Assembly (NCBI GenBank): GCA_021767845.1
Contig: JAASSQ010000003.1
Span: 1-34,511, forward strand
Origin: Roseovarius sp.
GTDB lineage: Bacteria > Pseudomonadota > Alphaproteobacteria > Rhodobacterales > Rhodobacteraceae
Reading direction: 5' to 3'
Length of the DNA: 34,511 bases
Below are positions 3,830-21,017 of the stretch, in pieces. Made by a program: the position numbers and the translations under genes. Every line of letters begins with the position of its first letter. Position 1 is the first letter of the stretch. Below the pieces are notes generated by a model. It did not search any database and had not been told where the DNA came from. It saw only the letters and a program-made list of their open reading frames with translations.

Positions 3830-3881
3830 GGCTGCCACAAAACGCTTGGCAGGGTGCCGTAACATCGGACAGACTTGGGGC

Positions 3882-5453
3882 ATGATATTGCCCCTAGTCA
3901 GACGCCTTTCGATATGTCTTCTGGCCGGCCTGACCGTCACGCCATTGCCGGCGCGGGCCGACCCGGGCGTGGTGAGCGTGGACGAACTGACCTCGCTTGG
4001 ACAGATCGGTTTCGCGGCAACCGGGTTCGAAATGCCGCAGATGTCGCCAGCGTTGCCGCTCCTGAACCCCGAGGACAGCTCGCCCGAGGCAGCCTTGTTG
4101 CGGCGTCTCGAAAACGCGGGCAAGGCGGCAGGATTCGAAGGCGTCTTGTATGACAACCGCGACGGCGGGCATTCGGTGCTGCCGCAAGGCACCTTTCCGC
4201 GCCTTGCCAAGCTGCAATACGGCCCGCAATTGCAGGAAAAGGGAGCGGACTACGGGTTGGCCGGCAAGATTCTCCTGCCGGCCATCGTGATCGGCAATTC
4301 CTCGACCGCGATCACCAGGGGGAAGATCAACCGCAGCCAGCCGCGCCTTGCCATGGCCACCGAGAAAGGAAGCGTGCGGGCCTTCCTGACCTATGTCAGC
4401 AACCACCTGTATATCTATCCCGAGCATAAGGATCACGATACGGTCGATCTGTATCCGGCCAACTGGCCCTACATGGTGATCTCGCAAGGGTCGTCGCGGT
4501 CGGACAAGCCGTTCTTGCGGGCCTTGCTGATGACGGTGGCCGCGCTGCAGCCCGCGACCCGCGACATCCTGCGCGACAAGAAACTGATCGCCCCCACCCT
4601 GCAGATGATTTTACGCCGCTCGCAGAAAGGGGTGTATTCGCGCGACGACTACATGAGCGGGCGGGCACATCCTGTCGTGTTCGACAAAAAGGGGCTGGCG
4701 CCGGAACGTATGGTGTCGATGGCTGCGGCACTTTCTCCTGACGAAATCCCCCCCGTTGTACAGCTGACGGTTGAAGAAGAAAGCTTTCGGGAAAAGGCGG
4801 GGCTGGCGCGTTTGTCCGAAAAGCTGTTCACGACGCCGTCGGCCATCGCCCGGTTGTGGCGCAGTCCCGATTACACGCAGCGCATGGTCGTTTCGGCAAG
4901 TGAGACCGAAGACCCGAACGGTTGGCGGCTGAAGTTCTACTGGGTGCTGTTGCAAGGTGACCCCGAGCGAGTACGCATAAAGACCAGGGGCCAGAACGAA
5001 ACCGGCGCAGAGATCGAGATCGACTGGCATGACACGTTCGCGCCCCCGGCGGTGCAACCCAGGCCCACGAACCGCGTGGATATTGGCGTTTTCGCTTGGA
5101 ACGGCGCGCATTACAGCGCCCCGGCCATCATTTCGATCGGCTTTCCCGGCCATCAGGCGCGGCGCTACGAGCCGGCGCCCGACGGGTCGGGCCGGCGGCT
5201 TGTCTCGATCGATTATGATGCCGAGGGGCGCAAGGCCTACTACGACCCGTTGCTTTACTGGACCGCCCCCTGGGCGGACACACTCAGCTATGACCGGGCG
5301 GGCGGCATCGCCGGAATCACACGCCGCACAAACGGCGACACGATGCGCCTTTCAACACCCGACCGTCTGCCCGACGGGCGCTTGGTGAGCTATCTGCCCG
5401 AAGACACCAAGCGCGGCAGATATCTTACAATGAGGATTGAAGCGGCTGAATGA
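3882..5453 (+). CDS. Secreted protein of unknown function (about 524 aa)
   Basis: Open to 5453; ATG at 3882 gives a signal peptide (MILPLVRRLSICLLAGLTVTPLPARA-DPG). I recognise no domain family. Confidence 0.75.
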   Translation: MILPLVRRLSICLLAGLTVTPLPARADPGVVSVDELTSLGQIGFAATGFEMPQMSPALPLLNPEDSSPEAALLRRLENAGKAAGFEGVLYDNRDGGHSVLPQGTFPRLAKLQYGPQLQEKGADYGLAGKILLPAIVIGNSSTAITRGKINRSQPRLAMATEKGSVRAFLTYVSNHLYIYPEHKDHDTVDLYPANWPYMVISQGSSRSDKPFLRALLMTVAALQPATRDILRDKKLIAPTLQMILRRSQKGVYSRDDYMSGRAHPVVFDKKGLAPERMVSMAAALSPDEIPPVVQLTVEEESFREKAGLARLSEKLFTTPSAIARLWRSPDYTQRMVVSASETEDPNGWRLKFYWVLLQGDPERVRIKTRGQNETGAEIEIDWHDTFAPPAVQPRPTNRVDIGVFAWNGAHYSAPAIISIGFPGHQARRYEPAPDGSGRRLVSIDYDAEGRKAYYDPLLYWTAPWADTLSYDRAGGIAGITRRTNGDTMRLSTPDRLPDGRLVSYLPEDTKRGRYLTMRIEAAE

Positions 5454-6177: not shown

Positions 6178-7062
6178 TCAATAGCCGTATTCCTTGCCGT
6201 ATTCCTCATGCCGATCAAGATACCGGCATTTGTTCAGGACAACACCCAGAACGTTGGTTCGGGCCGCCAGTTCCTGTTCGCATTTATCGACTTCCTCGAT
6301 GGTGGACCGTTCGGCCTCGGCAATCAGCAGGACGCAATCCACCTGATCGAGAAACGCGATGGTGTCGTCCCCGGCAAACATCGGAGGGGTGTCGAGAATG
6401 ATGATATCAGGCCTGTAGTTGGCTTCCAGGTTGTCAATGACGTGTGCCGCGCGTGCGCCTTGCAGCAATTCGGCCGGGTTGCGCGCAGGGGTCTGGTTGG
6501 CGCCAAGAAGCAGGTTGCGGCCGTAGCGCCGCATGTGCGCCTCGGGCTCTTCCTCGCCCCTGAGCACGCGGGAAAACTGGCAGGCGTCTTTCAGGCCGAT
6601 GCTTCGAGCCAACGCGGGTTGGCGCATGTCCAGTTCGAGCAGCATCGAGAAAACGTCGCTTTGGCGCGACAGGCTGAAGGCGAGGTTCAGGCTGGTCATT
6701 GTCTTGCCGGCCCTCGCCGAGGGCGAGGTGATGGCAACGCGGGTCCACTTGTTCTGGCGCATCTTGTGCAGAAGCTTGGTGCGCATCACGTCGTATGGCA
6801 CGCTGGCCGGGCTGGCCATGTGAGCAATCAGCCGGTGACGGTCCAGCACCTTCTCGGACGGGTTGATCGCGGGTATGGTTTTCCAAAGTTCTTCACGATC
6901 GCCCAAGGCCATGTCCGGGCTGAGCAAGAGCGCGTCAGGGTCGCGCGCCGCGCGGGCATCGCGCATGTCATCGGTGGCCGACACGGGGTGTTTCGCGTTC
7001 GGCTGGTCCAACCCCGAACGTGTTTCGCGAGCTTTCTTCAGCGCGGCCTGAATGCGTTCCAT
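6178..7062 (-). CDS. CpsD/CapB-family (BY-kinase-like) polysaccharide biosynthesis tyrosine autokinase, PEP-CTERM/XrtA-type
   Basis: 294 aa; 'VAITSPSARAGKTMTSLNLAFSLS', 'MLLELDMRQPAL', 'PDIIILDTPPMFAGDD'; C-terminal tyrosine cluster EYGKEYGY; directly downstream of a Wzz-type gene. Confidence 0.85.
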   Translation of the reverse strand: MERIQAALKKARETRSGLDQPNAKHPVSATDDMRDARAARDPDALLLSPDMALGDREELWKTIPAINPSEKVLDRHRLIAHMASPASVPYDVMRTKLLHKMRQNKWTRVAITSPSARAGKTMTSLNLAFSLSRQSDVFSMLLELDMRQPALARSIGLKDACQFSRVLRGEEEPEAHMRRYGRNLLLGANQTPARNPAELLQGARAAHVIDNLEANYRPDIIILDTPPMFAGDDTIAFLDQVDCVLLIAEAERSTIEEVDKCEQELAARTNVLGVVLNKCRYLDRHEEYGKEYGY

Positions 7063-7070
7063 TCGATCTG

Positions 7071-8639
7071 TTACCCTGCCTGGAATACGGTTTTTAGCTG
7101 TTCGGCGATGCCGGAGAGTCCTGTCTTTTCGAGCAGTTTCTCGATCAGCAAATCCATCGGCAAATAGAAGACATGAAGAAGATAAAGGCCAACCGGGATG
7201 CCGATCGTGACAGTCAGCAAGGCCGTAGCAATAAGAATGCGCCGCCTTCGCACCTGACGATTGGTGCGAATATAGGGAATCGACGCGAAAGGTGTGATCC
7301 CCAGCCGGTTGCTGAGATCCACCGGGCGGCGGATGGAGCGGTTCAACATTTCCAACAGGAAGATAAAGGCCACCCCTAGTCCGATACCGCCCGCCACGCC
7401 CGCCGCGGCAATCTTCTTGCGCGGGGGGCTGGTGGGCACGCGTGGCACGGTGGCCTGTTCGACAACGGTGATCCGCTGGCCGCGCGATTGGGCCTCGATC
7501 TGGTCGCCGGTGCGGGCGGCGGCCAGATCGCGGGTGGCCTGCTGATACTGGATGCGCAGGTTTTCATAGTCGCGCTCCAGCGTTCCAAGCGCGATGGCGT
7601 TCTCCGGCGTGGCGTCGATGGATTCTTCCAGCCTGACCAATTCCTCTTCAAGCTGGGCCTTTTCCCCGACGATGTAGTCCATCTGGGAATCCAGATCGGC
7701 CAACTGGATTTCATAGGCCGAAAGTACTTCGCCACCTTCTCCGGCCTGCTGCTTTTGTCGCAACACGATCTTGGACGCGGCCTCGACTTGCGCACGCAGG
7801 GTTTTGACGCGCGGGTTCTGGTCGGAATAGATCACCAGGGCCGAGGCCAGCTGGTTCTGCAACTCTTGCAGGCGCTGCATTTCGGGGGTCAGGTCCTCGA
7901 CCTCGACCGAGACTTCGCCGGTGCGTTCATAAAGCTCGGTCAGACGGGCGCGGCGATCGCGCAGAGCAGCCAGTTCGCGCTCCATCTGCAGGACGCGTTC
8001 CTGGAGAGAGGCCTGGCGTGAGCGCCTGAATTCCAAGCTGTCGGGCAAGGCGCCCTGTTTCGTTTTCTTGAACGTCAGGATCTTGGCCCCCTGTTCGGCC
8101 AATTCCTGATCGAGACGGGCGACCTCCTGCCTGAAAAACTCTAGCGTCTGCCCGGTGACATCGGTCCGCAGGCGGCGGTTTTCCTGCAGGATGCGCGTGA
8201 CGAGTTCATTCGCCACCTGCGCCGACAGCCGCCCTGAGTCGGAGCGAAACGAGACGTAGACGAACGACGCGGCATCGCGGCGGCGCGGCAACGAGATTCC
8301 GATACGGCCGCGCATGTCGCTGACGATATTGTCGGCGCTGATGTCGGGTCGGTCCGCATAGACGTCGAAATCGCTCGCGATCTCGAGCAAGTTGGCCCGC
8401 GTCCGCACCCGTTGAGCAATGATCTCAAGCACCTCGTCGGTGCCGGCCCGCACGGTGGATTCGGCCAGATCATCGGGAATCTGCGGCGATTCAACCAGCA
8501 AGGTCGCCCGAGCGGAGTAGCTGGGCGGCAGCGTATAGGCGATGGTCGCGCCAATGGCGGCGACTGTGAGTGCGATCAAAAGAAAGTAATGAATTCGCCT
8601 GAAAAATAACGAAGCCAGAAATTTGATATCAGGAAGCAT
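7071..8639 (-). CDS. Wzz/GumC-type polysaccharide chain-length determinant
   Basis: 522 aa; N-terminal TM (YFLLIALTVAAIGATIAYTL) with 'PPSYSARATLLVESPQIP', long coiled-coil centre, 'VPRVPTSPPRKKIAAAGVAGGIGLGVAFIFLLEMLNRSIRRP'. Confidence 0.9.
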   Translation of the reverse strand: MLPDIKFLASLFFRRIHYFLLIALTVAAIGATIAYTLPPSYSARATLLVESPQIPDDLAESTVRAGTDEVLEIIAQRVRTRANLLEIASDFDVYADRPDISADNIVSDMRGRIGISLPRRRDAASFVYVSFRSDSGRLSAQVANELVTRILQENRRLRTDVTGQTLEFFRQEVARLDQELAEQGAKILTFKKTKQGALPDSLEFRRSRQASLQERVLQMERELAALRDRRARLTELYERTGEVSVEVEDLTPEMQRLQELQNQLASALVIYSDQNPRVKTLRAQVEAASKIVLRQKQQAGEGGEVLSAYEIQLADLDSQMDYIVGEKAQLEEELVRLEESIDATPENAIALGTLERDYENLRIQYQQATRDLAAARTGDQIEAQSRGQRITVVEQATVPRVPTSPPRKKIAAAGVAGGIGLGVAFIFLLEMLNRSIRRPVDLSNRLGITPFASIPYIRTNRQVRRRRILIATALLTVTIGIPVGLYLLHVFYLPMDLLIEKLLEKTGLSGIAEQLKTVFQAG

Positions 8640-8653
8640 GAAGCTGTCTCTTG

Positions 8654-9820
8654 TTAATCTGCGGTCTCCTCTGGAAACGCACCCGCATAGAAGAATGCTC
8701 CATCGGCAAGAACTTCTTCAACTGTCGTCAGGGTAACCGTCTTTTGGTTTTTGGTAAAAGCATAAACCATTGAAAGATCACAAAGTTGGTTCACCAAGCG
8801 GGGGACTCCGCCGGTTTTTTCATGAATCCTGTTGCACGCGACCTCGGCGAACAGGTTGCGGGTCGCCCCGGCAACGCGCAACCGGTGCGCAATGTAGTCG
8901 CCCACCATTTGCCGATCCATGGCATCAAGGTGAAAGCTGGCGGCGATACGCTGCGCGAATTGCCGAAGCTCTGGGCGGTAGATCGTTTCGCGCAATTCCG
9001 GCTGCCCGACCAGCACGAGCTGCAGAAGTTCATCCTTGTTAGAATTGATGTTGGTGAACATCCGCAGTTCTTCGAGGGTTTCAATGCTCAGATTCTGGGC
9101 CTCGTCGAAGATGAGTATCACCCGGTTCCCGGCAGCGTATTCGGAAATCAGGTATTTCTGGAACGTCTCGAACAGGTCCACGTAGGTTGCGTCGCGATCG
9201 GCTGTCTGGTCAAGCGCCATGAGCACCCATCGCAGCAACTCCCCGCGCGACCCGTGAGCGTTCGAGATCAACCCGATTCTCACATCCTCACCGATGCCCT
9301 TGAGGAACTTGTGCAGCAACGTGGTCTTGCCCGCACCGACCTCGCCAGTGATCAGGGTGATCGGCGCGCCGGTGAGAGTGCCGTATTCCAGCATGGCAAA
9401 CGCGCGCTTGTGGGCGGGAGACCAGAACAGAAAATCGGGGTCCGGCACGAGGGTAAAGGGGCGCGATGTCAGTCCGAAATGCTGTGTATATATATCAAGC
9501 GCGCCGCTCATGGATTTGATGTAACTCGATTCTCGCGCCTCATCCAATGTTTTGGGTGCACTATTCGTCTGTTTTCCCCTCGCGGCCAAGGCCGTGGCGT
9601 TCGGCGGCGGCTGGGTTCCGCCCCCTTGTGCCTCGGCGGGCCCTGGGCGAACGCTGCGAAAAATCGGGGCAGCATCTACCATCTTCGACTGCCGAGACTT
9701 GCGCAGACCCAATACGCCATGGCGCAAGGCCAAGCTGCGGGCACTGGTCGTTGCCGGCAAGGGCTCATGCGCCCGGTTCGCAGGATCGCGATCTGGAGAG
9801 AAAATATTATCCCGATACAT
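8654..9820 (-). CDS. AAA ATPase, ExeA-like, of the type associated with PEP-CTERM/XrtA EPS loci
   Basis: 'YTQHFGLTSRPFTLVPDPDFLFWSPAHKRAFAMLEYGTLTGAPITLITGEVGAGKTTLLHKFL', 'VILIFDEAQNLSIETLEELRMFTNINSNKDELLQLVLVGQPELRE'. ATG 9820 (MYRDNIF) or 9511 (MSGALDIY); ORF remains open to 9982. Confidence 0.85.
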   Translation of the reverse strand: MYRDNIFSPDRDPANRAHEPLPATTSARSLALRHGVLGLRKSRQSKMVDAAPIFRSVRPGPAEAQGGGTQPPPNATALAARGKQTNSAPKTLDEARESSYIKSMSGALDIYTQHFGLTSRPFTLVPDPDFLFWSPAHKRAFAMLEYGTLTGAPITLITGEVGAGKTTLLHKFLKGIGEDVRIGLISNAHGSRGELLRWVLMALDQTADRDATYVDLFETFQKYLISEYAAGNRVILIFDEAQNLSIETLEELRMFTNINSNKDELLQLVLVGQPELRETIYRPELRQFAQRIAASFHLDAMDRQMVGDYIAHRLRVAGATRNLFAEVACNRIHEKTGGVPRLVNQLCDLSMVYAFTKNQKTVTLTTVEEVLADGAFFYAGAFPEETAD

Positions 9821-10116
9821 CTGACCCTCTTGAAAAGCATTCACGATTGAACGGTTGAGACAGTGTATGAGCCTCGGGGTATTGCCGTGCGAGGCTACGA
9901 CGCTGGCATAAAAGTATAACTGAATTGAATGCTTTGGCGATATGGCGACAGGACTGCGGTGATTTCGTGTCATTGCCCGCATGCAAGGGGCAGATGCAAT
10001 GATTCGGGCTGTTTCCGAGTGGCACCAAATCCGCGCGGCTCACAATCCTGCCTTATTTCGGACAAAATCCACCCGAATGCTGAAATTTGTTTCGAGATTT
10101 GCACGCGGAAACTCGC

Positions 10117-10150
10117 TTAGGTTGTTTGATTGACTTTATAAACAACCTAA
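10117..10150. promoter_or_regulatory. 11-bp perfect inverted repeat in AT-rich leader
   Basis: TTAGGTTGTTT (10117-10127) - 12 nt - AAACAACCTAA (10140-10150). Confidence 0.45.
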
Positions 10151-10200
10151 ATTTGCATTTTGAATCTAGTCTTTGCTTATGCGATGGCTGGGTGTTAATC

Positions 10201-10229
10201 TATCTTAAGATAATTGAAGATTTCTTAAG
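10201..10229. promoter_or_regulatory. Palindrome TATCTTAAGATA plus second CTTAAG 20 bp downstream
   Basis: TATCTTAAGATA at 10201-10212; CTTAAG at 10204-10209 and 10224-10229. Confidence 0.35.
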
Positions 10230-10238
10230 TGAAGGGCA

Positions 10239-10317
10239 AACGGCTCCAAGCCGTTGCTTAAAAACAATAAATCAGAGCAGTAAAATAATTGATCCGCTGG
10301 CTTCTTTTTCAAGCCAG
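10239..10317 (+). promoter_or_regulatory. Two further hairpins in the leader of the sugar transferase gene
   Basis: AACGGCT-CCA-AGCCGTT (10239-10255) and CTGGCTT-ctttttc-AAGCCAG (10297-10317). Confidence 0.4.
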
Positions 10318-10384
10318 ACAGTTGGATTTCGAGAGTGGTGTTGATCGCCTTTTTTGTGTGAGGATTTTTGAGGATTGGCTATTT

Positions 10385-11086
10385 ATGACTGTTCAAGACA
10401 AAGATATCAGACCGAATTTCGAGATCATTGCCGCCCAGCCCCGCCTAACCGAGCCGCAGCAGAAGCAGCAACGCGATCGCGATCTCTATGCGCGCGTCTT
10501 CAAGCGTGTGCTGGATGTGGTCTTGGTGCTTCTGGCCTCGCCGATCGTTGTGCCGTTCGTCGCTCTTGTCGCGTTTCTGGTGGCTCTGGACGGGCATAAT
10601 CCATTTTACAGTCAGAAGCGCGTTGGAAGGAATGGTCGGGAATTCCGCATGTGGAAGCTGCGCAGCATGGTTCACGACGCCGATGCGCAACTGCACCGAC
10701 ACCTGGAATACGATTCAGCCGCCCGCGCAGAATGGCGCGACAAGCAAAAGCTGACCAACGATCCGCGAATTACCACGATTGGCCGTGTCCTGCGCAAAAG
10801 CTCGATGGATGAGCTGCCGCAGCTTTGGAACGTGTTCATCGGGGAAATGAGCCTCGTCGGCCCGCGCCCGATGATGCCCGAACAGCGCGATCTGTATCCC
10901 GGCGTCGCGTATTTCGAGATGCGGCCCGGAATTACCGGCTACTGGCAGATTCTCGACCGCAACGAGACGCCTTTTGCCGCCCGCGCGTCATTCGATGTTC
11001 GGTATCACGCCGACATCAGCCTGGCCACGGATCTGCGGGTTCTGATGAAAACAGTTGCTGTCGTCCTGCGTGGCACTGGATGTTGA
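10385..11086 (+). CDS. Undecaprenyl-phosphate sugar-1-phosphate transferase (ExoY/WbaP-like initiating transferase)
   Basis: 'RVFKRVLDVVLVLLASPIVVPFVALVAFLVALDGHNPFYSQKRVGRNGREFRMWKLRSMV...LRKSSMDELPQLWNVFIGEMSLVGPRPMMPEQRDLYPG...RPGITGYWQI' is diagnostic of the bacterial sugar transferase family. ATG at 10385. Confidence 0.95.
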   Translation: MTVQDKDIRPNFEIIAAQPRLTEPQQKQQRDRDLYARVFKRVLDVVLVLLASPIVVPFVALVAFLVALDGHNPFYSQKRVGRNGREFRMWKLRSMVHDADAQLHRHLEYDSAARAEWRDKQKLTNDPRITTIGRVLRKSSMDELPQLWNVFIGEMSLVGPRPMMPEQRDLYPGVAYFEMRPGITGYWQILDRNETPFAARASFDVRYHADISLATDLRVLMKTVAVVLRGTGC

Positions 11087-11111
11087 AACACGGCCTCGTG
11101 TGTTCATGATG

Positions 11112-11148
11112 CAAGGGCCATCCAGGGCAGTGACCTTGGGTGGCCTTG
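11112..11148 (+). terminator. Long bulged hairpin with following T-rich stretch between sugar transferase and TPR lipoprotein (terminator or attenuator candidate)
   Basis: CAAGGgCCATCCAGG - gcagtga - CCTtGGGTGGCCTTG: about 14 pairs including one G-U, two single-nt bulges, followed by TTTCCTTTT. Confidence 0.4.
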
Positions 11149-11235
11149 TTTCCTTTTGGCCGAAATCGGGCCTCGCTGTAATGTGTTGGTCAACAAGTGC
11201 CCGAAATCCGATTGATTCAAGTCTTGGAAAACTCA

Positions 11236-13680
11236 ATGCGCCGACGTTCTGTTGCCCTGCCTGCCCTTGTCCTGAGTGCGATGGTCGCCCTTGCCGCATG
11301 TGAAAGCTCGGAAGAGCGGGCCCAGCGCCATTTCGAAACCGCCATGCAATTGCTGGCCGACGGCGATGCCGAACGCGCCTATGTCGAATTCCGAAACGTG
11401 TTCAAGCTGAACCCGCGCCACAAGGAAGCGCGCATGGAGTACGCCCTTGCGCGGCTCGAGGCGGGCGACAAATCCGAAGCTTACGGGCAGCTTTTGCGCC
11501 TGGTCGAGCAACACCCGGACGCCATCGAGGCCCGTATCATGCTGGCCGAGCTGGCAATTCAGAACCGCAAGTGGGAAGAAGCGAACCGCCATGGCGAGAA
11601 GGCGGTTGAGCTGGCGCCGCAGGATCCGCGCGTGACGGTGATCAAGACCGCGCTGCACTATGTCGAGGCGACCAAGGCAAGCGACACCGCCGCGCGAGCC
11701 GAACAGGCTGAGATCGCCCGCGCGGAAATGACCACCGCGCCGGACAATTTCATCGCCCGAAGCATCGTGATTGATTACCTCGCCGCGACTGGGAATGTCG
11801 AAGAGGCCCTGCCGCTGATCGACGAAGGGCTGGCGCAGCGACCCGAGGACTCCAACCTGCATCGGATCAAGCTGCAGGCGCAACTTCAGGCCGGCAAGAC
11901 CGATCTGGTGGGCGACACGCTGCGCACGATGGTCGAAACATTCCCCGATGACGAAGACGCCCGGCGCATGTTGATCACCTGGTATATCCAGCAAGGTGAC
12001 ATGGAGGGTGCCGAACGGTTCTTGCGGGAACTGGCCGCGCGTCCCGATGCAGATGCCGGCGCGCATGTCGCCGTCGTGCAGTTCCTGCGCCGCGCCGAAG
12101 GCGAAGACGCTGCGCGAGAAGAACTGCAGCGTCTGATCGAGACGCAGGAATCACCCGCGGTTTACATCTCGATCCTGGCGTCGATGGATTTCGAGGCCGG
12201 CGACAAGGATGGGGCGATCGCCGCGCTGGAAAACCTGGTGGACGGAATTGAAACTCCGACCGTTGAGACGAATAATGCGAAATTCCTCCTGTCCCAGATG
12301 CTGGGGGCGACCGGGAATCACGTGGGTGCGAGGGCGCGGATCGAACAGATCCTGGCCGACGACAACTCCCATGTTCAGGCGCTCAAAGCACGGGCAAGTC
12401 TGCTGATCGAGGACGACAAGCCAGGCGAGGCGATCATCGATCTGCGAACGGCCCTGTCGCAGGACCCAGAGGATGCAGAAATCATGACCTTGATGGCGCG
12501 TGCTCATGAACGGGCCGGGGACCGCGCCCTGGCCGGAGAGCGGTATGCGCTGGCGGTCGAACTGTCAGACCGCGCACCGGCGGAATCGCAACGTTATGCC
12601 CGCTATCTCGTGGTCGAAGACCGACTGGATGCCGCCATCGCAGTGCTGACCGAGGCGTTGAACGAAACCCCCGAGAACGTGAGCCTCATAAAGATGGCCG
12701 CCGGATTGCACCTGCGCAACCGCGACTGGAACGAGGTTCAGCGCGCCATCTGGAAGCTGCGGAAGGTTGGCACCGAGGATGCGGTTGCGGCCGCCAATGC
12801 GCTGGAAGCGGAAATGCTGCTCTTGCAGGATCGGCTGGACGAATCCGTCGCGTTTCTTGAAAATCTGTCCAGCGGATCGGGCGACATTGGCGCGGTATCC
12901 GCCCTGGTGCAGGCGCAGTTGCGCGCGGGAAACATTGAGGCGGCCCGGGACATTATCGATGAGCGTCTCGAAGCCGCTCCAGATGATCCGGCACTGCGGT
13001 TCTTGCGCGCGGGCCTGCACGTCGTCGCAGGAGAACGGGCCGAAGCGGAAACCATTTACCGCGCACTTCTTGAAAACCACCCCGGCAGCGACGCCGTGAT
13101 CCGGGCGCTTTACAGTGTCTTGCAAGCCGAAGACCGGCTCGACGATGCCCGCGCGATGCTGGAGAGCCAGCGAGCCCTCGCGCCCCAGGCGATGAATGTG
13201 CGGCTTTTGATGGCGGAACTTATGGAACGCGGCCGTGATTTCGATGGCGCGATCGAGATCTACGAGGAGCTGTATGACGAGAACAGCAACAACCTTATCG
13301 TCGCGAACAATCTGGCCAGCCTTATGGCTTCCCATCGAACGGACGACGAGAGCTTGGACCGGGCCTACTCCATTGCCCGGCGGTTGCGCGGCAGTGACAT
13401 CCCGCAGTTGCAGGATACCTATGGCTGGATCGCGTTTCGCCGAGGCGATTTGAACGAGGCGTTGGCGCACCTGGAGCCCGCTGCCAAGGGGTTGCCCGAT
13501 GATCCGCTGGTGCAATACCATTTGGCGCGCACCTACGTTGAGCTTGACCGGATCAATGACGCCCGCGTGCAATTGGAGAAAGCAATCGAGCTGTCCGGGG
13601 ACGCGCCCCTGCCGCAAATTGAACAGGCACGCGAGATGCTGGACTCTCTGCCTGATCCTGTAAACGCCTCGACCGAATGA
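11236..13680 (+). CDS. TPR-repeat lipoprotein, PrsT-like (PEP-CTERM EPS system)
   Basis: About 814 aa; lipobox in MRRRSVALPALVLSAMVALAACESSEERAQRHFETAMQLL; many TPR-like repeats to the C-terminus. Confidence 0.85.
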   Translation: MRRRSVALPALVLSAMVALAACESSEERAQRHFETAMQLLADGDAERAYVEFRNVFKLNPRHKEARMEYALARLEAGDKSEAYGQLLRLVEQHPDAIEARIMLAELAIQNRKWEEANRHGEKAVELAPQDPRVTVIKTALHYVEATKASDTAARAEQAEIARAEMTTAPDNFIARSIVIDYLAATGNVEEALPLIDEGLAQRPEDSNLHRIKLQAQLQAGKTDLVGDTLRTMVETFPDDEDARRMLITWYIQQGDMEGAERFLRELAARPDADAGAHVAVVQFLRRAEGEDAAREELQRLIETQESPAVYISILASMDFEAGDKDGAIAALENLVDGIETPTVETNNAKFLLSQMLGATGNHVGARARIEQILADDNSHVQALKARASLLIEDDKPGEAIIDLRTALSQDPEDAEIMTLMARAHERAGDRALAGERYALAVELSDRAPAESQRYARYLVVEDRLDAAIAVLTEALNETPENVSLIKMAAGLHLRNRDWNEVQRAIWKLRKVGTEDAVAAANALEAEMLLLQDRLDESVAFLENLSSGSGDIGAVSALVQAQLRAGNIEAARDIIDERLEAAPDDPALRFLRAGLHVVAGERAEAETIYRALLENHPGSDAVIRALYSVLQAEDRLDDARAMLESQRALAPQAMNVRLLMAELMERGRDFDGAIEIYEELYDENSNNLIVANNLASLMASHRTDDESLDRAYSIARRLRGSDIPQLQDTYGWIAFRRGDLNEALAHLEPAAKGLPDDPLVQYHLARTYVELDRINDARVQLEKAIELSGDAPLPQIEQAREMLDSLPDPVNASTE

Positions 13681-13744
13681 TCCCGGTAAAAGAGGGTCCG
13701 ATAAGCAGGGACGTGACTTGTCATTCAGATCACATCGATGGACC

Positions 13745-13773
13745 AAAAATTAAGGGGCCCGAAGGCCCCTTAA
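13745..13773 (-). terminator. Rho-independent terminator of the VPLPA-tailed protein gene
   Basis: Perfect 10-bp stem TTAAGGGGCC (13750-13759) - CGAA - GGCCCCTTAA (13764-13773). Read on the minus strand the loop is TTCG and the stem is followed by TTTTT. Confidence 0.85.
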
Positions 13774-13802
13774 CCGTGTCGCATCGCGGTTGACCGTTCG
13801 CG

Positions 13803-14480
13803 TCAGGCCGCTTTCTTCTTGCGGCGCACAGCGGCCAAGCCACCAAGCGCCGTCAGCAGAAGCAGACCACCGGCCGGAAGCGGAATAACCGAGATCCGCA
13901 CGACCATGTCATCAAAGTCACTGTCGCCGCGGCCGTCACCGAAGAAGGCGAGCGCGTTCTTCGAATCTTCCAGGTAGAAACCCATGCTCAGCGGCACCGA
14001 GGTGCCCGAGGGCGCCCCACCGGTATTGTTGGTGATCGAGCCCAGGCTGACCGCCGGGTTGTTCGTCTTGAACGTCTCGAACGTCAGGTCCACCCACGAG
14101 GCCAGGTCGAAGCTCTGGATGCTGGCGCCGGCTGCGCCGGTGTTGCTCAGAGAGCCCCCTGCGAAGTTCATCGCAGCGTTCTTGGCCCCGGCCTCTTTCC
14201 CGAGGAACGTGATACGAACCGGCGCATCATTGTTAAGCATTAGACCATTGGACCCGTCGAACGCTTCGAAGCTCGAACCGCCAAACGCGAGAATGTCATC
14301 GCCCGCCCCAACGGTCGGAGCACCTGATACCAGCGCGGTGTAATCGGGATTGTGCTTGTTGGACCCAGATCCCGACAGTGTTTCCGTGGTTCCCCCAACA
14401 ATTGATAATGACGCAGCGGTGGCGGCCGACGCGATAAACGCCGACGAAATGGCAGCGCCAACTGCTAATTTAAAGTTCAT
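13803..14480 (-). CDS. Secreted protein with VPLPA/PEP-CTERM-type sorting tail
   Basis: Signal peptide MNFKLAVGAAISSAFIASAATAA; C-terminus 'GDGRGDSDFDDMVVRISVIPLPAGGLLLLTALGGLAAVRRKKKAA' = PLPAG motif, TM helix, basic cluster. AAGGAG upstream of ATG at 14480. Confidence 0.88.
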   Translation of the reverse strand: MNFKLAVGAAISSAFIASAATAASLSIVGGTTETLSGSGSNKHNPDYTALVSGAPTVGAGDDILAFGGSSFEAFDGSNGLMLNNDAPVRITFLGKEAGAKNAAMNFAGGSLSNTGAAGASIQSFDLASWVDLTFETFKTNNPAVSLGSITNNTGGAPSGTSVPLSMGFYLEDSKNALAFFGDGRGDSDFDDMVVRISVIPLPAGGLLLLTALGGLAAVRRKKKAA

Positions 14481-14784
14481 GTCAAAACTCCTTTTATCGT
14501 GAAACCGGCCCAGGCGTTTACGAAAATGATCGGGCATAAAAATTCGGCCTCAAGTGGTAACAGGATACTCTAAAGGGCCGTTTAAAAAAAGCCTTCAATG
14601 CTCTGCAAAGCCTTATCCGACACGATTGACGCGGGTGCGAGGGTAATTCATACGGGTGAAGGCCACCAAAAGGCATGCGAGCGGTGGAATTGATTACCTA
14701 TCGTGAACAATTCGGTCATTCTTGCAGCATTGTTGCGAGGGACCACTTTTGACGAAGGGATTACCGAATCGCTTGGGCCACCCC

Positions 14785-15006
14785 TCACATGGAGCCATCG
14801 GTGGAACGTTTCTGGTATCTGTCACGGCTTTCCCCGCGTTGATCCATCGTGGCACAGACAAGGGCACGCAAGAAAGCCAAGCCAAGCACGCAAAACCCTG
14901 TGGCGACGTAAACCCCGAACGCCCCCCAAATCGACGCACCAAGAAAGAGGGATGAAAGGCTTGCCGCGGCCCCAGCGATCAACGCGGTAAGAACAAAAGC
15001 GATCAT
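14785..15006 (-). CDS. Small membrane protein (73 aa)
   Basis: MIAFVLTALIAGAAASLSSLFLGASIWGAFGVYVATGFCVLGLAFLRALVCATMDQR...; two predicted hydrophobic helices with a polar tail. Confidence 0.45.
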   Translation of the reverse strand: MIAFVLTALIAGAAASLSSLFLGASIWGAFGVYVATGFCVLGLAFLRALVCATMDQRGESRDRYQKRSTDGSM

Positions 15007-15123
15007 TGCACTATCTCGGCTCGGACGTCATGGATCAAAAACGCTTCCTATACATGAATATCCGTAGCACGAAAGCGGGTCAAAGTGGGTAAAGTGAATA
15101 AAAATAATGACATTTTCGTGTCC

Positions 15124-15196
15124 AACCTGTGGCCCGGCCACCTTTCGCCCTGACCGCGCCGAAATCTTGCCACAATCGCATGACCGCCCACAGGTT
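15124..15196. promoter_or_regulatory. 9-bp inverted repeat pair upstream of the Wza-type gene
   Basis: AACCTGTGG (15124-15132) and CCACAGGTT (15188-15196), centres 64 bp apart. Confidence 0.25.
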
Positions 15197-15335
15197 TGTT
15201 GTAATGCTGGCACTTCGCGGCGCGTACTTCGGTGTTCGGGCCCGAAAACCCAGAAAAACCTTTCGAAACGAAAATTTGCGGCGTATTTTTAATGTCGGAA
15301 GATTTGTCATCCCATAGATCGAAAGAGAGCCCGGC

Positions 15336-15950
15336 ATGACACGTATATTCGCTTTTTTCGCCGTTTTTCTCAGTGTTTCATTCATGTCCCTGCCTGCGAG
15401 TGCGCAGGACAACTATCGGATCAAGGCCGGTGACGTGGTGCGCGTCGAAGTGCTGGAGGATTCCAGCCTCAATCGTGACGCGCTGGTGTTGCCCGACGGG
15501 CGCATTTCCCTGCCAATGGCCGGTTCGGTTTCGGCCAGCGGACGCACCGTGGAACAGCTTCGCAATTCGATCCGATCGCAACTGGCACCCAACTTCGCAT
15601 CTGATCCAACCGTGCATGTCGCACTGAGCCGTCTGGCCCCGCCCGCCCCTGCGAGCGCCGCCTCGGCCCCGGCGACCGACACGATCTACATTCTTGGCGA
15701 AGTGAACAATCCCGGCGCAGTCGAACTGGAGGAAGGGACAACCCTGCTTCAGGCGCTGGCCGCCGTCGGCGGGTTTTCCAAATTCGCGGCGACCAAGCGG
15801 ATCCAGCTGCGTCGCACCGATCGTTCGCGCGTGGAGCGGATCTACAACGTCAACTACCAGGACATTCTTCAAGGCAAAACAAGCATCGGGACAACCGTTC
15901 TTGCCTCGGGTGATGTGATCATCGTGCCGCAAAGGCGGCTTTTCGAATAG
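15336..15950 (+). CDS. Short polysaccharide export protein (Wza/OPX family)
   Basis: 204 aa; signal peptide ending PASAQ; 'DNYRIKAGDVVRVEVLEDSSLNRDALVLPDGRISLPMAGSVSASGRTVEQL' (export domain) and 'IYILGEVNNPGAVELEEGTTLLQALAAVGGFSKFA' (SLBB). Confidence 0.92.
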   Translation: MTRIFAFFAVFLSVSFMSLPASAQDNYRIKAGDVVRVEVLEDSSLNRDALVLPDGRISLPMAGSVSASGRTVEQLRNSIRSQLAPNFASDPTVHVALSRLAPPAPASAASAPATDTIYILGEVNNPGAVELEEGTTLLQALAAVGGFSKFAATKRIQLRRTDRSRVERIYNVNYQDILQGKTSIGTTVLASGDVIIVPQRRLFE

Positions 15951-15972
15951 TCGAAGCCATTTCGGGGGCGCA

Positions 15973-17367
15973 GTGGTGAAAAGCAGAAGACTGATACAGG
16001 CAACAGTCGCTGGCGGACTCGCGTGCGTCGTCCTTCCTGCTTTCGCGCAGGAGGGCAGCGGGCTTCGAATGATTTTCGGCCTACAGCAGGAATTTGAGGC
16101 CGGCGACAACCTCTCCCTCGAAATCCCCTCGGAAGGCTCGACCGCGCTGTCGACTACGACGCTCTCGTTCGATCTGTTGTCGGAGACGCGCACGCAATCC
16201 CTGTCATTCGGTTTGGCCGGCAGCCTGCGCGAGGGCGATATCCCGCGCGGCAGCGACATTTCCACCGGCTTTGTCGATCCCGTCGTCACGCTTGGCTATA
16301 GCCGTGAGGCCGCCAATGCGCGCTTGTCTTTCGACGGTCGTTATCGTGAAAGCGACGTATCCTTCCTCGATCCGCTGGCGTTGCTCGTGGATGACACGGG
16401 CGTTCTGGTTCTGCCCGAAGATTTCGAAACGCTCAACGCGACGGGCACGCGGCGCAGCTACAACGTTTCCACAAAACTGGAGACCGGCATAGACGGACCG
16501 TTCGGCCTTGTTTTCGACGCCAAGGCCAGCGGGATTTCGTATGGCGATGGCGCGTCGGCGACGCTGGATGACTCTCGGCGCTACGGATATGGTCTCGAGG
16601 CGCGGCTGCGGTTTTCGCCGGTCACTACGGGATTTGCCGGGTATGATCGCGATTATTACGAATCCGACGATGCGCAGGATTCGGAGAACGAGACAGACGC
16701 TTTCGAAATCGGTGTGAACCATGCTCTTTCGCGGCGGGCCTCGATCGAGGTGGCGATCGGCTACAGCGAAAGTTCGGAAACCGAAAACCTTGTCACCACA
16801 AAAAGCGACGGACTGACTGGCCGGGTTGTCTATGGTCTTGAGATGCCGAATGGGGCGCTTGACCTATCCTACGAGGCGACGCGAGATCAGGACGGCAAAC
16901 GCGAATTCGTGCGTTTTGACAGGTCTTTCGAGCAACCCCTAGGGGTATTCTCTTACAACATCGGCGCAACTCGCAAGGGCAGCGGCGACCCTGACCTCAT
17001 TGGTGGGCTGACCTGGCGTCGCGACCTGCCGGCCGGTCGCATCACCCTGGGCATGAAGCGCGGCGTCACCGTGAACGACAACGACGACGAGCGGATTTCG
17101 ACCACGGCGACCTTCGGCTACCTGTATCAGATCAATCAACTGTCCAGCCTAGGCTTCGACGCGTCCTACGGCCTGACGGAAAGCAGCGCATCCCGGAACG
17201 ACACGCAGCGAACCGACCTGACGACCAGCTACAACTACGCGCTGACACCGGATTGGTCATTGAGCACGGGGGTTTCCTACCGGGTTCGGGACGAAGACGC
17301 CGCTGGACGCTCGGACTCGACCTCGGTTTTCCTTCGGATCGGGCGCGAATTCACCATTTTCCGATGA
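15973..17367 (+). CDS. Predicted outer-membrane beta-barrel protein of EPS export
   Basis: 464 aa, GTG start; signal peptide (LACVVLPAFAQ); repeated alternating beta-strand pattern (e.g. 'TATFGYLYQINQLSSLGFDASYGLTESS', 'DLTTSYNYALTPDWSLSTGVSYRVRDED') and aromatic-rich C-terminal strand 'FLRIGREFTIFR'. Confidence 0.75.
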   Translation: MVKSRRLIQATVAGGLACVVLPAFAQEGSGLRMIFGLQQEFEAGDNLSLEIPSEGSTALSTTTLSFDLLSETRTQSLSFGLAGSLREGDIPRGSDISTGFVDPVVTLGYSREAANARLSFDGRYRESDVSFLDPLALLVDDTGVLVLPEDFETLNATGTRRSYNVSTKLETGIDGPFGLVFDAKASGISYGDGASATLDDSRRYGYGLEARLRFSPVTTGFAGYDRDYYESDDAQDSENETDAFEIGVNHALSRRASIEVAIGYSESSETENLVTTKSDGLTGRVVYGLEMPNGALDLSYEATRDQDGKREFVRFDRSFEQPLGVFSYNIGATRKGSGDPDLIGGLTWRRDLPAGRITLGMKRGVTVNDNDDERISTTATFGYLYQINQLSSLGFDASYGLTESSASRNDTQRTDLTTSYNYALTPDWSLSTGVSYRVRDEDAAGRSDSTSVFLRIGREFTIFR

Positions 17368-17435
17368 TCCATCGGCGGCGGGCCTGAAAAGGGCGGGCTA
17401 TTGCAAGCCTTAGCAAGGGATGCTCATCGGGCGCC

Positions 17436-18086
17436 ATGACCTATAGCCAGTCTTTTCCGCTCCGTTTACCGCTTGCTCTCGTTCTGCTCATTCTGCCCTC
17501 TGCGGGGATCGAGCTGGCCTTGCAGTTGGCGGACTGGGGGCTGATCGGCACCCCCCGCTGGCGGGGGCTTGCCTACCAGTTCGGTGCGTTCTGGCCGGGT
17601 TTGTTGTCGGGGTGGCGACCGAACTACACCGTGCAGCCGGAGGTGATGTTTTTCAGCTATGCTTTTCTGCATGGCGGGCTGGTGCATCTGATCGTCAACA
17701 TGATCGCGCTTGTTTCACTGGGGGGCGCGGTAATCGCACAGGTGGGCCAATGGCGGTTTCTGCTGATCTACGCCGTGTCGGCCGTTTTGGGCGGTGCGGC
17801 CTTTGCGATTCTGTCGGCCAGCGGGTTTCAACCAATGGTTGGCGCCTCGGGATCGCTGTTCGGGTTGGCGGGCGCGCTTGTCGTCTGGGGTGTTGTCATC
17901 ACGCTTCACCAGCGGGCTGGGATCTGGACAACGATTGTCGCCATCGCCTGGCCGGTGGGGCTCCTGACAGTTCTCAACATCGTGATGTATGTCGGCACCG
18001 ACGGGGCGGTCGCTTGGGAAACCCATCTCGGCGGGTTTCTGGCCGGGGCCGTTGTGGCGCTTTTCATGTCACCACGAGCGGAATAG
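17436..18086 (+). CDS. Rhomboid-family intramembrane serine protease
   Basis: 216 aa polytopic; 'FFSYAFLHGGLVHLIVNMIALVSLGG', catalytic-type 'GASGSLFG', and 'WETHLGGFLAGAVVALF' histidine motif. Confidence 0.9.
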   Translation: MTYSQSFPLRLPLALVLLILPSAGIELALQLADWGLIGTPRWRGLAYQFGAFWPGLLSGWRPNYTVQPEVMFFSYAFLHGGLVHLIVNMIALVSLGGAVIAQVGQWRFLLIYAVSAVLGGAAFAILSASGFQPMVGASGSLFGLAGALVVWGVVITLHQRAGIWTTIVAIAWPVGLLTVLNIVMYVGTDGAVAWETHLGGFLAGAVVALFMSPRAE

Positions 18087-18101: not shown

Positions 18102-19532
18102 CTATTGCCCGTCCACTGCATGCTTGTCCGGCACGGAGCCGAGTGCGGCCGATGACACGGCAGCGCGCGTGACCTGCGCTGCTTCGGTCGGCTTTTGATC
18201 CTCGATGATATCCTCGTAGCCGATGCCCAGCCCGACGCGCAGGTCAATATATGCCAGCGCCAGGTCGCGCAAGGCGCCCGCTTGCCGCGCCCGAGCGGCC
18301 GACAATGAACGTTCCCGGTCGATCACGTCCAGCACGGTTGCTTCGCCCCCCTCGCTGACTAGGCGCCGCGACAGTTCGAGCGCACGTTTGTTCAGTGACA
18401 CCAGATCACCCGTGGTGTTCACGGTGTCGCGCGCCGCCTGAAGGCGTGTCAAGGCGTTCTCCACCTCTTCAACTGCGGTCAGAACGTTCTGGCGCCATTG
18501 CAGATAGGCCTGCTGTGCGCGCGCTTCGGCCGCGTCGGCCGAGGCGACAAGGGCCGGTTGCGCAAAGACCGGCATGGTCAGTCCCGCCACGATCCTTTCG
18601 TTCCATGATCCGCTTTCAAGCGGCGCGGTGATCAATCCGCTGAGATTCAGGCTGGGATAACGGGAGGCCTGCGCCACCCCAAGATCTGACACGGCGGCGG
18701 CATAGCGCCGTTCGGCAATGCGTATGTCTGGCCGGCTTCGCAACAGGTCGGCGGGCACGCTGGCTTGGCCGGTCTGGCGCGGCAGCGGTTGTTTGCCTTG
18801 ATACCCCAGATCCACACCAAGGGTGCCGACGGGCTGACCCAGAAGGGTCGAAATACGATTGCGCTGCGCGATGATGCCGGCCCTTATGTCCGGGACCTCG
18901 GACCGGGTTTCCGAGACAAGGGCGCGCGCGCGCAACACGTCGAGCTGGGTGGCGGCACCGGCCTCGAGCAGTGTGTTGAGATCGCGCAAGGTGCGGCGCC
19001 GCGATGCCAGATCCTGCTGGCGGGTCTCAAGGCTGCGTTGAAGGAAGCGCATCTGAACGTAGGCGTTACCCAGTTCAGAAAGCAACAGGCGGCGGGCCTC
19101 GTTTTCCCCGAGTTTTGCGGCTTTAAGTCTTTGACGCGCGGCGCGGCTGGCCCATTGAGTACGCCCTGCCAGGCCGAAATTTGCCTCGATTCCGGCCGAG
19201 GCGGTGTCGGAGCCGTTGGAATTGCCACGCGCCGAGGCGGTGGCGTTACCGGTGATCGCAACACTGTCGCGGCGCAAGATGGCTTCAGCCTCGCGGATAC
19301 GTTGGCGGGCCTGCGCAACGCTCAGGTTGCCGTCCATTCCGGCGTCAACAAGGCGGGTGAGAACCGGATCATCGAAATCAAGCCACCAGTCCAGATCGGC
19401 GCGGCTCACTTTACTGACCGGCTCCAGCAACGAGTAGCGGTCGGGAAGGTCTATTTCAGGGAATTGGTACGTTGGACCGACAGTGCATGCCGACAACGCC
19501 CACCCCGCGCAAACGCATAAAAATATACGCAT
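18102..19532 (-). CDS. Outer-membrane efflux lipoprotein (TolC/NodT family)
   Basis: 476 aa; lipobox MRIFLCVCAGWALSACTVGPTYQFPEIDLPDRY; 'DLDWWLDFDDPVLTRLVDAGMDGNLSVAQARQRIREAEA', 'RSRPDIRIAERRYAAAVSDLGVAQASRYPSLNLSGLI'. Confidence 0.92.
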   Translation of the reverse strand: MRIFLCVCAGWALSACTVGPTYQFPEIDLPDRYSLLEPVSKVSRADLDWWLDFDDPVLTRLVDAGMDGNLSVAQARQRIREAEAILRRDSVAITGNATASARGNSNGSDTASAGIEANFGLAGRTQWASRAARQRLKAAKLGENEARRLLLSELGNAYVQMRFLQRSLETRQQDLASRRRTLRDLNTLLEAGAATQLDVLRARALVSETRSEVPDIRAGIIAQRNRISTLLGQPVGTLGVDLGYQGKQPLPRQTGQASVPADLLRSRPDIRIAERRYAAAVSDLGVAQASRYPSLNLSGLITAPLESGSWNERIVAGLTMPVFAQPALVASADAAEARAQQAYLQWRQNVLTAVEEVENALTRLQAARDTVNTTGDLVSLNKRALELSRRLVSEGGEATVLDVIDRERSLSAARARQAGALRDLALAYIDLRVGLGIGYEDIIEDQKPTEAAQVTRAAVSSAALGSVPDKHAVDGQ

Positions 19533-19703
19533 TGAAAATGCCTGTTTTCTGCCTCACGAGCCATCACGCACGCATTTTCTGCGCATCTCTAACTTGGCTC
19601 GTTTGCGAGTTTAGCAAAAAAAGGGCCATTATTCCACGGCCTTGTCCGCTTTGCACAGGTTCGCCCGTACTGTTGCGTATTTACGTCAGCGCCGAATTCC
19701 ATC

Positions 19704-21017
19704 CTATTCGCGAAAGGCACGGTGGAAAAACCGGGCCATCGGCTCGACCAGGTAGGCAAGAGGCGAGCGCGCTCCGGTTTGAATGAAGCACTGCACAGGC
19801 ATTCCCGGCAACAATGTCTGATCCTCGAGTTTGGAAATCTGGGTGCTGTCGGGCACAATTTCGACCGAGTAGTACGCCTGCCCAGTGGCCTCGTCACGCA
19901 ACACGTCCGCCGACAGGCTGCGCACCGCACCCTTGAGTTCGGGAACGTCGCGCTGGTCGAAGGCCGAGAATTGCAACGAGGCCTCCTGCCCGGCGAACAC
20001 CTCGTCGATATGGATCGTATCGACGCGCGCCGAAACGACCAGCGGCTGATCCTGCGGGATGATGTACATCAGCGGCTGCGCCGGCTGAACCACCGATTGC
20101 GTGCCAAACACCTGAAGGCCGTACACAATTCCGTCTACAGGGGCGCGGATATCGAGCTTGGAAATGGTGTCGCGAAGGCTGAGGCGGCGCTCGGACAGCT
20201 CGATTTCACGGAATTCCAGATCGCGCAGCCGGGTCACCGCGTTCTCCCGACGCTGTGTCGTAAGCTGCAGCAGCGCGATCCCGTTGCTGGTTTTCTGGCC
20301 GCGGAGCTCTGCCGCTTCCGCCTCCAGCCGCCCGATCTGGCCTTCCAGCCTGGCCAATTCGCGTTTCAACTCGCTCACGCGAGAGGCGCGCGTGAGGTTC
20401 TTGTCGAGCAGCTGGAGTTCAGAGTCGAGATCCTCCTGGACCAAGGCCGCCTGTTCGTTCAGGGCATCAAGCTGCGCCATCAGGCCCGCGATCCGGTCCT
20501 CGATCTGCTGGTTCTGCTCCTTGAGCAGGCTGACTTCCTGTTGCAGGGAGTCATTGCGCGATTGGAACAGGGTGCGTTCGCCCTGCAGCAATTTCTTGAT
20601 CTCCGGTTGCGTTTCAGCCTCTTGCAAAAGCACGGGATCAAAGGAAATGGACTGCGCGCTGTCCCGTTCGGCCTGCAGGCGGGATTTGCGGGCCGAAAGT
20701 TCCCGCAATTGTGCCTCTACGATGCTCAATTCTGATTTCTGGCGGCTTCCATCCAACTGGATCAGGATATCGCCTTGTTCGACGCGGTCGCTCTCCTTGA
20801 CCAGCACGGTTTCGACCACACCGCCTTCGGGGTGTTGCACGGCCTGTCGGTTGGTTTCGACCTTCACCTGCCCCGGCGCGACCACAGCGCCCGACAACTC
20901 GGCCCGGACCGACCACACTCCCAGCCCTCCCACCAGCGCGATCAGCGCAAGAATGCCGGCGGTCAGGGGGAACACCCCCTTCCATTTCGGATCTTCGTCC
21001 TTGTTCGGATTGCTCAC
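19704..21017 (-). CDS. Type I secretion periplasmic adaptor (HlyD/PrtE family)
   Basis: GTG start at 21017 overlapping the upstream stop; 'SGAVVAPGQVKVETNRQAVQHPEGGVVETVLVKESDRVEQGDILIQLDGSRQKSE', coiled coil, 'LDIRAPVDGIVYGLQVFGTQSVVQPAQPLMYIIPQDQPLVVSARV'. Confidence 0.92.
   Translation of the reverse strand: MSNPNKDEDPKWKGVFPLTAGILALIALVGGLGVWSVRAELSGAVVAPGQVKVETNRQAVQHPEGGVVETVLVKESDRVEQGDILIQLDGSRQKSELSIVEAQLRELSARKSRLQAERDSAQSISFDPVLLQEAETQPEIKKLLQGERTLFQSRNDSLQQEVSLLKEQNQQIEDRIAGLMAQLDALNEQAALVQEDLDSELQLLDKNLTRASRVSELKRELARLEGQIGRLEAEAAELRGQKTSNGIALLQLTTQRRENAVTRLRDLEFREIELSERRLSLRDTISKLDIRAPVDGIVYGLQVFGTQSVVQPAQPLMYIIPQDQPLVVSARVDTIHIDEVFAGQEASLQFSAFDQRDVPELKGAVRSLSADVLRDEATGQAYYSVEIVPDSTQISKLEDQTLLPGMPVQCFIQTGARSPLAYLVEPMARFFHRAFRE

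Follow-up and report, generated by a model that had tools for sequence, protein, structure and literature searches.

The cuts that rhomboid proteases make lie within the membrane helices of their substrates or close to them. In Vibrio cholerae, RssP cleaves a GlyGly-CTERM protein inside its helix, and GlpG cleaves that protein at another place, with a different destination (PMC11389362). Here, we describe a rhomboid gene of Roseovarius sp. that lies in an exopolysaccharide (EPS) locus together with a gene for a VPLPA-CTERM protein, in a stretch of 34,511 nucleotides (contig JAASSQ010000003.1, positions 1–34,511; hereafter, the window). Exosortases such as XrtD, whose tails are of the VPLPA-CTERM type, have to our knowledge been assumed to correspond one-to-one with their tails. 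Our literature search yielded no paper that deals with XrtD or that pairs a rhomboid with VPLPA tails. Based on its sequence and distribution, we consider the window rhomboid to be, with a probability of roughly 60 per cent, an active intramembrane serine protease whose function is specific to the VPLPA-CTERM system in Rhodobacterales, where it would cut beside XrtD or instead of it.

The distribution was surveyed in 398 genomes of the family, which represent 353 genera. Rhomboids were assigned to the clade of the window protein at 245 bits or more, and XrtD was counted as present where PF09721 matched at E ≤ 1e-40, a criterion that stands in for XrtD and lets in a few other large exosortases as well (that of genome G050, for example, scores merely 152 bits to TIGR04152). 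VPLPA tails are present in 69 and absent from five of the genomes with the clade rhomboid, as compared to 55 and 269, respectively, of the genomes without it (odds ratio 67; Fisher P-value = 1.6e-36; this and the following P-values ignore shared ancestry and are uncorrected for genome phylogeny, a matter that the rhomboid tree addresses in part). Among the 300 XrtD-free genomes, those with the rhomboid divide into 15 with and five without VPLPA tails, and those without it into 19 and 261 (odds ratio 41; P-value = 2.7e-12); when the cut-off is relaxed to 225 bits, the four counts are 15, 11, 19, and 255 (P-value = 9e-10). The rhomboid is co-distributed with VPLPA tails independently of XrtD. 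The median number of tails, among the matches listed, is 7.5 in genomes with both XrtD and the rhomboid versus 2 in genomes with XrtD alone (tail counts near 20 per genome are lower bounds), which fits a division of labour but also other explanations.

In the phylogeny of 50 rhomboids of the clade, VPLPA tails are found in every sampled genome of the main clade, while XrtD comes and goes: the tree requires 10 or more changes in its presence, and at least five of these are forced by well-supported branches. This persistence of the tails while XrtD varies is our strongest argument for assigning the rhomboid to the tail rather than to XrtD alone. The five VPLPA-free genomes with the rhomboid (G032, G159, G177, G273, and G368; loci L058 and L243–L247) form a single, strongly supported side branch (100/99), in which the gene order is transferase–rhomboid–ATPase, within a different polysaccharide locus and with no XrtD. 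No variant or alternative tail was found near the side-branch loci.

The gene neighbourhoods link the rhomboid to both the exosortase and the tails. XrtD and the rhomboid are encoded on one contig in 41 of the 54 genomes that have both, always at most 43 kb apart, and in 19 of these 41 the two genes are adjacent and co-directional. In a set of 121 genomes, the rhomboid orthologue often lies directly behind xrtD, the standing order of the locus being kinase–Wzz–ATPase / transferase–PrsT–Wza–barrel–xrtD–rhomboid; in 12 of the 15 XrtD-free genomes with VPLPA tails and the rhomboid, the rhomboid gene directly follows the barrel gene. Fifteen public plasmids carry the rhomboid, and 14 of them also carry xrtD; for the 15th, from Rhodobacter sp. 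CZR27, xrtD is located on a sister plasmid of the same strain. In Pseudorhodobacter turbinis, the VPLPA, xrtD, and rhomboid genes are consecutive, and in Haematobacter massiliensis a VPLPA gene lies 116 bp ahead of the rhomboid gene. Separately, a 24-kb plasmid record of Bacillus velezensis (NZ_CP061940.1) contains a broken xrtD-like stretch with 49 per cent identity, which is out of place in Bacillus; the record is probably a contaminating contig.

An exosortase D gene in every genome with this locus, an outcome that the first-pass annotation had named as one half of a case against the rhomboid, is not what the survey recovered: 15 VPLPA-positive genomes carry the locus and the rhomboid but no XrtD. 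In 14 of them (G074, G099, G116, G140, G141, G160, G168, G192, G214, G227, G240, G297, G335, and G358) there is no detectable exosortase, defined across the 398 genomes as no PF09721 match at E ≤ 0.01, and these genomes encode from three to at least 20 tails and have the rhomboid inside the EPS locus. For G074, G099, and G116, the PF09721 search was extended to E ≤ 10 and gave no match; their tailed proteins carry signal peptides, and the VPLPA tails are normal and cannot be told apart from the tails in XrtD-only genomes. The 15th genome, G129, has only a different, weakly matching exosortase (71 bits). Both G129 and G240 are single-contig genomes, and an assembly gap is therefore an unlikely cause of the absence in these two. 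Elsewhere in the survey, we observed large proteins that combine an exosortase-like half with an apparent CPBP-type protease half (L050 in G043, L051 in G066, and L053 in G030), which we take to be of the XrtE kind; G066 has at least 11 VPLPA tails, and the fusion protein is its only exosortase.

For the Roseovarius genome itself, the first-pass annotation had noted that the window lacks an exosortase and had offered two alternatives, an exosortase elsewhere in the genome or tail processing by the rhomboid. The two are not mutually exclusive. A profile search of the whole genome returned a single PF09721 match, outside of the window at 18.4 kb of contig C295; this protein is XrtD, with 651 bits over 486 of the 486 positions of TIGR04152 (cut-off 400) and a fused EpsI domain (118.6 bits). 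The lack of an exosortase as an organism-wide property is accordingly rejected, and its absence from the window is therefore a question of gene location. The genome is a draft (2.97 Mb in 363 contigs, approximately 86 per cent complete), and the assignment of C295 to it by binning (contamination estimate of 1 per cent) and similar composition does not amount to proof. The tetranucleotide correlation is 0.948 between C295 and the window and 0.942 between the two halves of the window, but other genera reach up to 0.93, and composition therefore does not prove membership.

The VPLPA-tailed protein that the same annotation had placed among the EPS genes is genuine by the TIGR03370 model. Its tail reads VIPLPAGGLLLLTALGGLAAVRRKKKAA, and, as read from the sequence, an internal Met precedes MNFKLAVGAAISSAFIASAATAAS; the start chosen in the first pass is a downstream in-frame one relative to 14537. 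Two proteins of the whole genome score above the TIGR03370 cut-off, the second (38.7 bits) being encoded on C295, 5 kb from xrtD, whereas the cut-off was passed in none of 14 control genomes; the tail in the window is therefore not a chance match.

The window rhomboid should be an active protease, because Ser138 and His197 as well as His84 and Asn88 of the HxxxN loop are invariant in its 26 relatives. It is one of four rhomboids of the genome and falls in a clade separate from two distinct housekeeping clades, both of which are kept in every genome checked. Another of the four (C225:2511–3095; L006 of genome G000, the Roseovarius genome) is 44 per cent identical to it, belongs to a neighbouring clade, and is unlinked to the EPS locus. 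Membership in the rhombosortase family TIGR03902 was considered and rejected (29.5 bits versus a cut-off of 84); the model does not discriminate here, as all 26 of 26 relatives match it weakly and housekeeping rhomboids do likewise. By family, the protein is no rhombosortase, yet it may work like one. Proteins of the clade are annotated by NCBI just as 'rhomboid family intramembrane serine protease', and an AlphaFold model of the rhomboid from four sequences was too poor for use (mean predicted local distance difference test score of 49.7).

Most likely, the rhomboid would cleave precursors with a VPLPA tail within the C-terminal membrane helix or immediately adjacent to it. Where XrtD is present, the rhomboid would act beside the exosortase, for instance by making an additional or a different cut that chooses between anchoring and release; in exosortase-free genomes, it alone would remove the tail; and in the Roseovarius genome, the two VPLPA proteins would be expected to be substrates of XrtD and the rhomboid alike. 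The proposal that the rhomboid has a part in processing the tails, as a new pairing, draws support from linkage and co-occurrence, while we infer that cleavage occurs, that the tail is the substrate, where the cut falls, whether it comes before or after XrtD, and what becomes of the product. More tentatively, we suggest as quite possible that the clade is a true VPLPA-CTERM sorting enzyme, which shares the tails with XrtD in many Rhodobacterales and works alone in several XrtD-free lineages.

Several observations weigh against a rhomboid dedicated to these tails. Apart from the shared ancestry behind the P-values, the rhomboid is missing from 44 genomes with XrtD and is therefore not essential to XrtD, and no rhomboid-specific tail variant was found: the tails of rhomboid-only (36), XrtD-only (24), and neither-enzyme (30) genomes are alike. 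The survey did not split EPS genes from VPLPA tails and has no EPS-only class, so an EPS role is possible, and a role in polysaccharide assembly is likewise possible because the side branch occupies a polysaccharide locus without VPLPA tails. Finally, VPLPA tails can exist without either enzyme, since 19 VPLPA-positive genomes have neither XrtD nor the clade rhomboid, and five of these encode nine to 19 tails and lack any match to an exosortase. In such genomes, either a third enzyme exists or the tails persist unprocessed. Examples are G028, G073, G122, G207, G210, and G323, among others (loci L251–L270; up to 19 VPLPA-tailed proteins per genome), and many of them lack an exosortase altogether. 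Those checked have rhomboids of the two housekeeping types alone, save one divergent extra in G057, and no protease or candidate gene was found next to their VPLPA genes.

The alternative that survives best, although we consider it unlikely, is that the rhomboid is a part of the EPS machinery that trims or degrades, for example, Wzz, PrsT, the barrel, or a regulator, with the shared EPS locus as the only reason for its association with the tails. Such a role would suit its position directly behind the barrel gene in most loci and the side branch, where it stands beside a sugar transferase and an ATPase in genomes without VPLPA tails, PrsT, and Wza; it does not suit G087, G109, G119, and G036, where the rhomboid lies away from the EPS locus and VPLPA tails are present, nor the 19 genomes in which the rhomboid gene adjoins xrtD, nor Haematobacter, where it adjoins a VPLPA gene. 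Rather unlikely, too, is that the tails of XrtD-free genomes are processed by an undetected enzyme, a diverged exosortase or a member of another family, to which the rhomboid is an accessory. Another route probably exists, given the 19 VPLPA-positive genomes without either candidate, but the PF09721 searches of G074, G099, and G116 argue against an overlooked exosortase there, and the rhomboid occurs in 15 of the 34 XrtD-free genomes with tails versus five of the 266 tail-free ones. We find it improbable that XrtD sorts the proteins and the rhomboid merely cleans up by degrading leftover tail helices or unsorted precursors: the adjoining genes in many genera and the larger number of tails in genomes with both enzymes are compatible with this role, but the rhomboid is kept in the 15 VPLPA-positive genomes without XrtD (14 of them without a PF09721 match), where XrtD would leave nothing behind. 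That tail processing is left entirely to XrtD, with the rhomboid as an unrelated, chance neighbour, is scarcely credible, as linkage, plasmid co-residence, and co-occurrence far beyond chance contradict it despite the XrtD of the Roseovarius genome lying on another contig and the many XrtD genomes without the rhomboid.

The PEP-CTERM-type EPS cluster of the first-pass annotation was recovered with every gene named in it (Table 1). Because its proteins match the models of XrtA loci, yet all fall under the XrtA-specific cut-offs (TIGR03007, TIGR03015, TIGR02917, TIGR03027, TIGR03016, and TIGR03018), the locus is, to judge by these scores, a sister type related to XrtD and not an XrtA locus. The BY-kinase-like protein, which ends in tyrosines (...YGKEYGY), is kept in the locus across genera, and in the neighbourhood comparison the beta-barrel gene holds a conserved place ahead of xrtD or the rhomboid gene. 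The real start of the ExeA-like ATPase is probably further in, the N-terminal ~150 amino acids being doubtful.

Table 1. Features of the EPS locus and its VPLPA-CTERM and rhomboid genes, in window coordinates.
Feature	Position	Strand	Evidence
BY-kinase-like tyrosine autokinase, EPS core	6178..7062	-	TIGR03018 91.6 bits (cut-off 230.7); TIGR01007 79.9
Wzz/PCP chain-length determinant	7071..8639	-	TIGR03007 194 bits (cut-off 279); Pfam Wzz 31.6 bits
ExeA-like AAA ATPase, PEP-CTERM EPS type	8654..9982	-	TIGR03015 257 bits from residue 164 (cut-off 325)
Polyprenyl-phosphate sugar transferase	10289..11086	+	PF02397 200 bits
TPR lipoprotein, PrsT type, lipobox LAAC	11197..13680	+	TIGR02917 241 bits (cut-off 312)
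VPLPA-CTERM protein with signal peptide	13803..14537	-	TIGR03370 40.8 bits (cut-off 25.35); syntenic homologues in Roseovarius
VPLPA-CTERM tail: PLPA motif, hydrophobic helix, RRKKK	13812..13886	-	
Short Wza-like export protein, Poly_export + SLBB	15336..15950	+	PF02563 74.5 bits; TIGR03027 118 bits (cut-off 180)
Outer-membrane beta-barrel, TIGR03016 kind, weak match	15973..17367	+	TIGR03016 24.8 bits (cut-off 90.9); Porin_4 37.7
Rhomboid protease, VPLPA/XrtD-linked clade	17436..18086	+	PF01694 90.6 bits; 68 bp after beta-barrel gene, same strand
Rhomboid catalytic Ser138 codon (GASGSLFG)	17847..17849	+	Invariant in 26 sequences
Rhomboid catalytic His197 codon (AWETHLGG)	18024..18026	+	Invariant in 26 sequences

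A further gene and a set of genes flank the locus. On the plus strand, positions 3846–5453 encode a secreted protein of 535 amino acids with no Pfam match, a possible further member of the system; in G099, G116, and G087, its homologues lie divergently beside the rhomboid gene, and in G082 the homologue is close by. On the minus strand, positions 18102–22762 encode an outer-membrane efflux protein, an HlyD-like adaptor, and a following gene, which together look like a type I secretion set and are syntenic with the EPS locus in Roseovarius.

If the proposed role is true, two unrelated intramembrane enzymes serve one sorting signal. The rhomboid would be a concrete candidate enzyme for the at least 14 genomes in which the same tail persists without a detected exosortase and the rhomboid is in the EPS locus, and the natural single-enzyme strains make the poorly understood fate of VPLPA and PEP-CTERM proteins testable by gene removal. 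Among known systems, myxosortase belongs to the CPBP family. With its MYXO-CTERM substrates, it shows that an intramembrane protease other than an exosortase can sort tripartite tails, although both its protease and its tail differ from those described here (PMC11980579). VesB of V. cholerae, which is cut by RssP and GlpG, provides a model for two intramembrane proteases that act on one tailed substrate at different sites and with different destinations (PMC11389362), but both of its proteases are rhomboids, whereas the pair proposed here consists of an exosortase and a rhomboid. The XrtA/PEP-CTERM EPS locus has the kinase, Wzz, ATPase, sugar transferase, PrsT, Wza, and barrel in a comparable neighbourhood, but the window proteins score under the XrtA-specific cut-offs and the exosortase here is not XrtA. 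XrtD (TIGR04152) and VPLPA-CTERM proteins (TIGR03370) share the tails and the EPS locus with the rhomboid, and the Roseovarius genome has both enzymes; exosortases, however, form a family of their own, and the 15 rhomboid-bearing VPLPA-positive genomes lack XrtD. Like rhombosortase (RssP/RrtA) and GlyGly-CTERM, the window clade is a rhomboid subfamily that is co-distributed with a tripartite tail (motif, helix, and basic cluster) and is sometimes encoded beside a target, putative in the case of the window clade (PMC3237569, PMC11389362); unlike rhombosortase, its tail is VPLPA instead of GlyGly, and its gene shows linkage to both an exosortase gene and the EPS locus.

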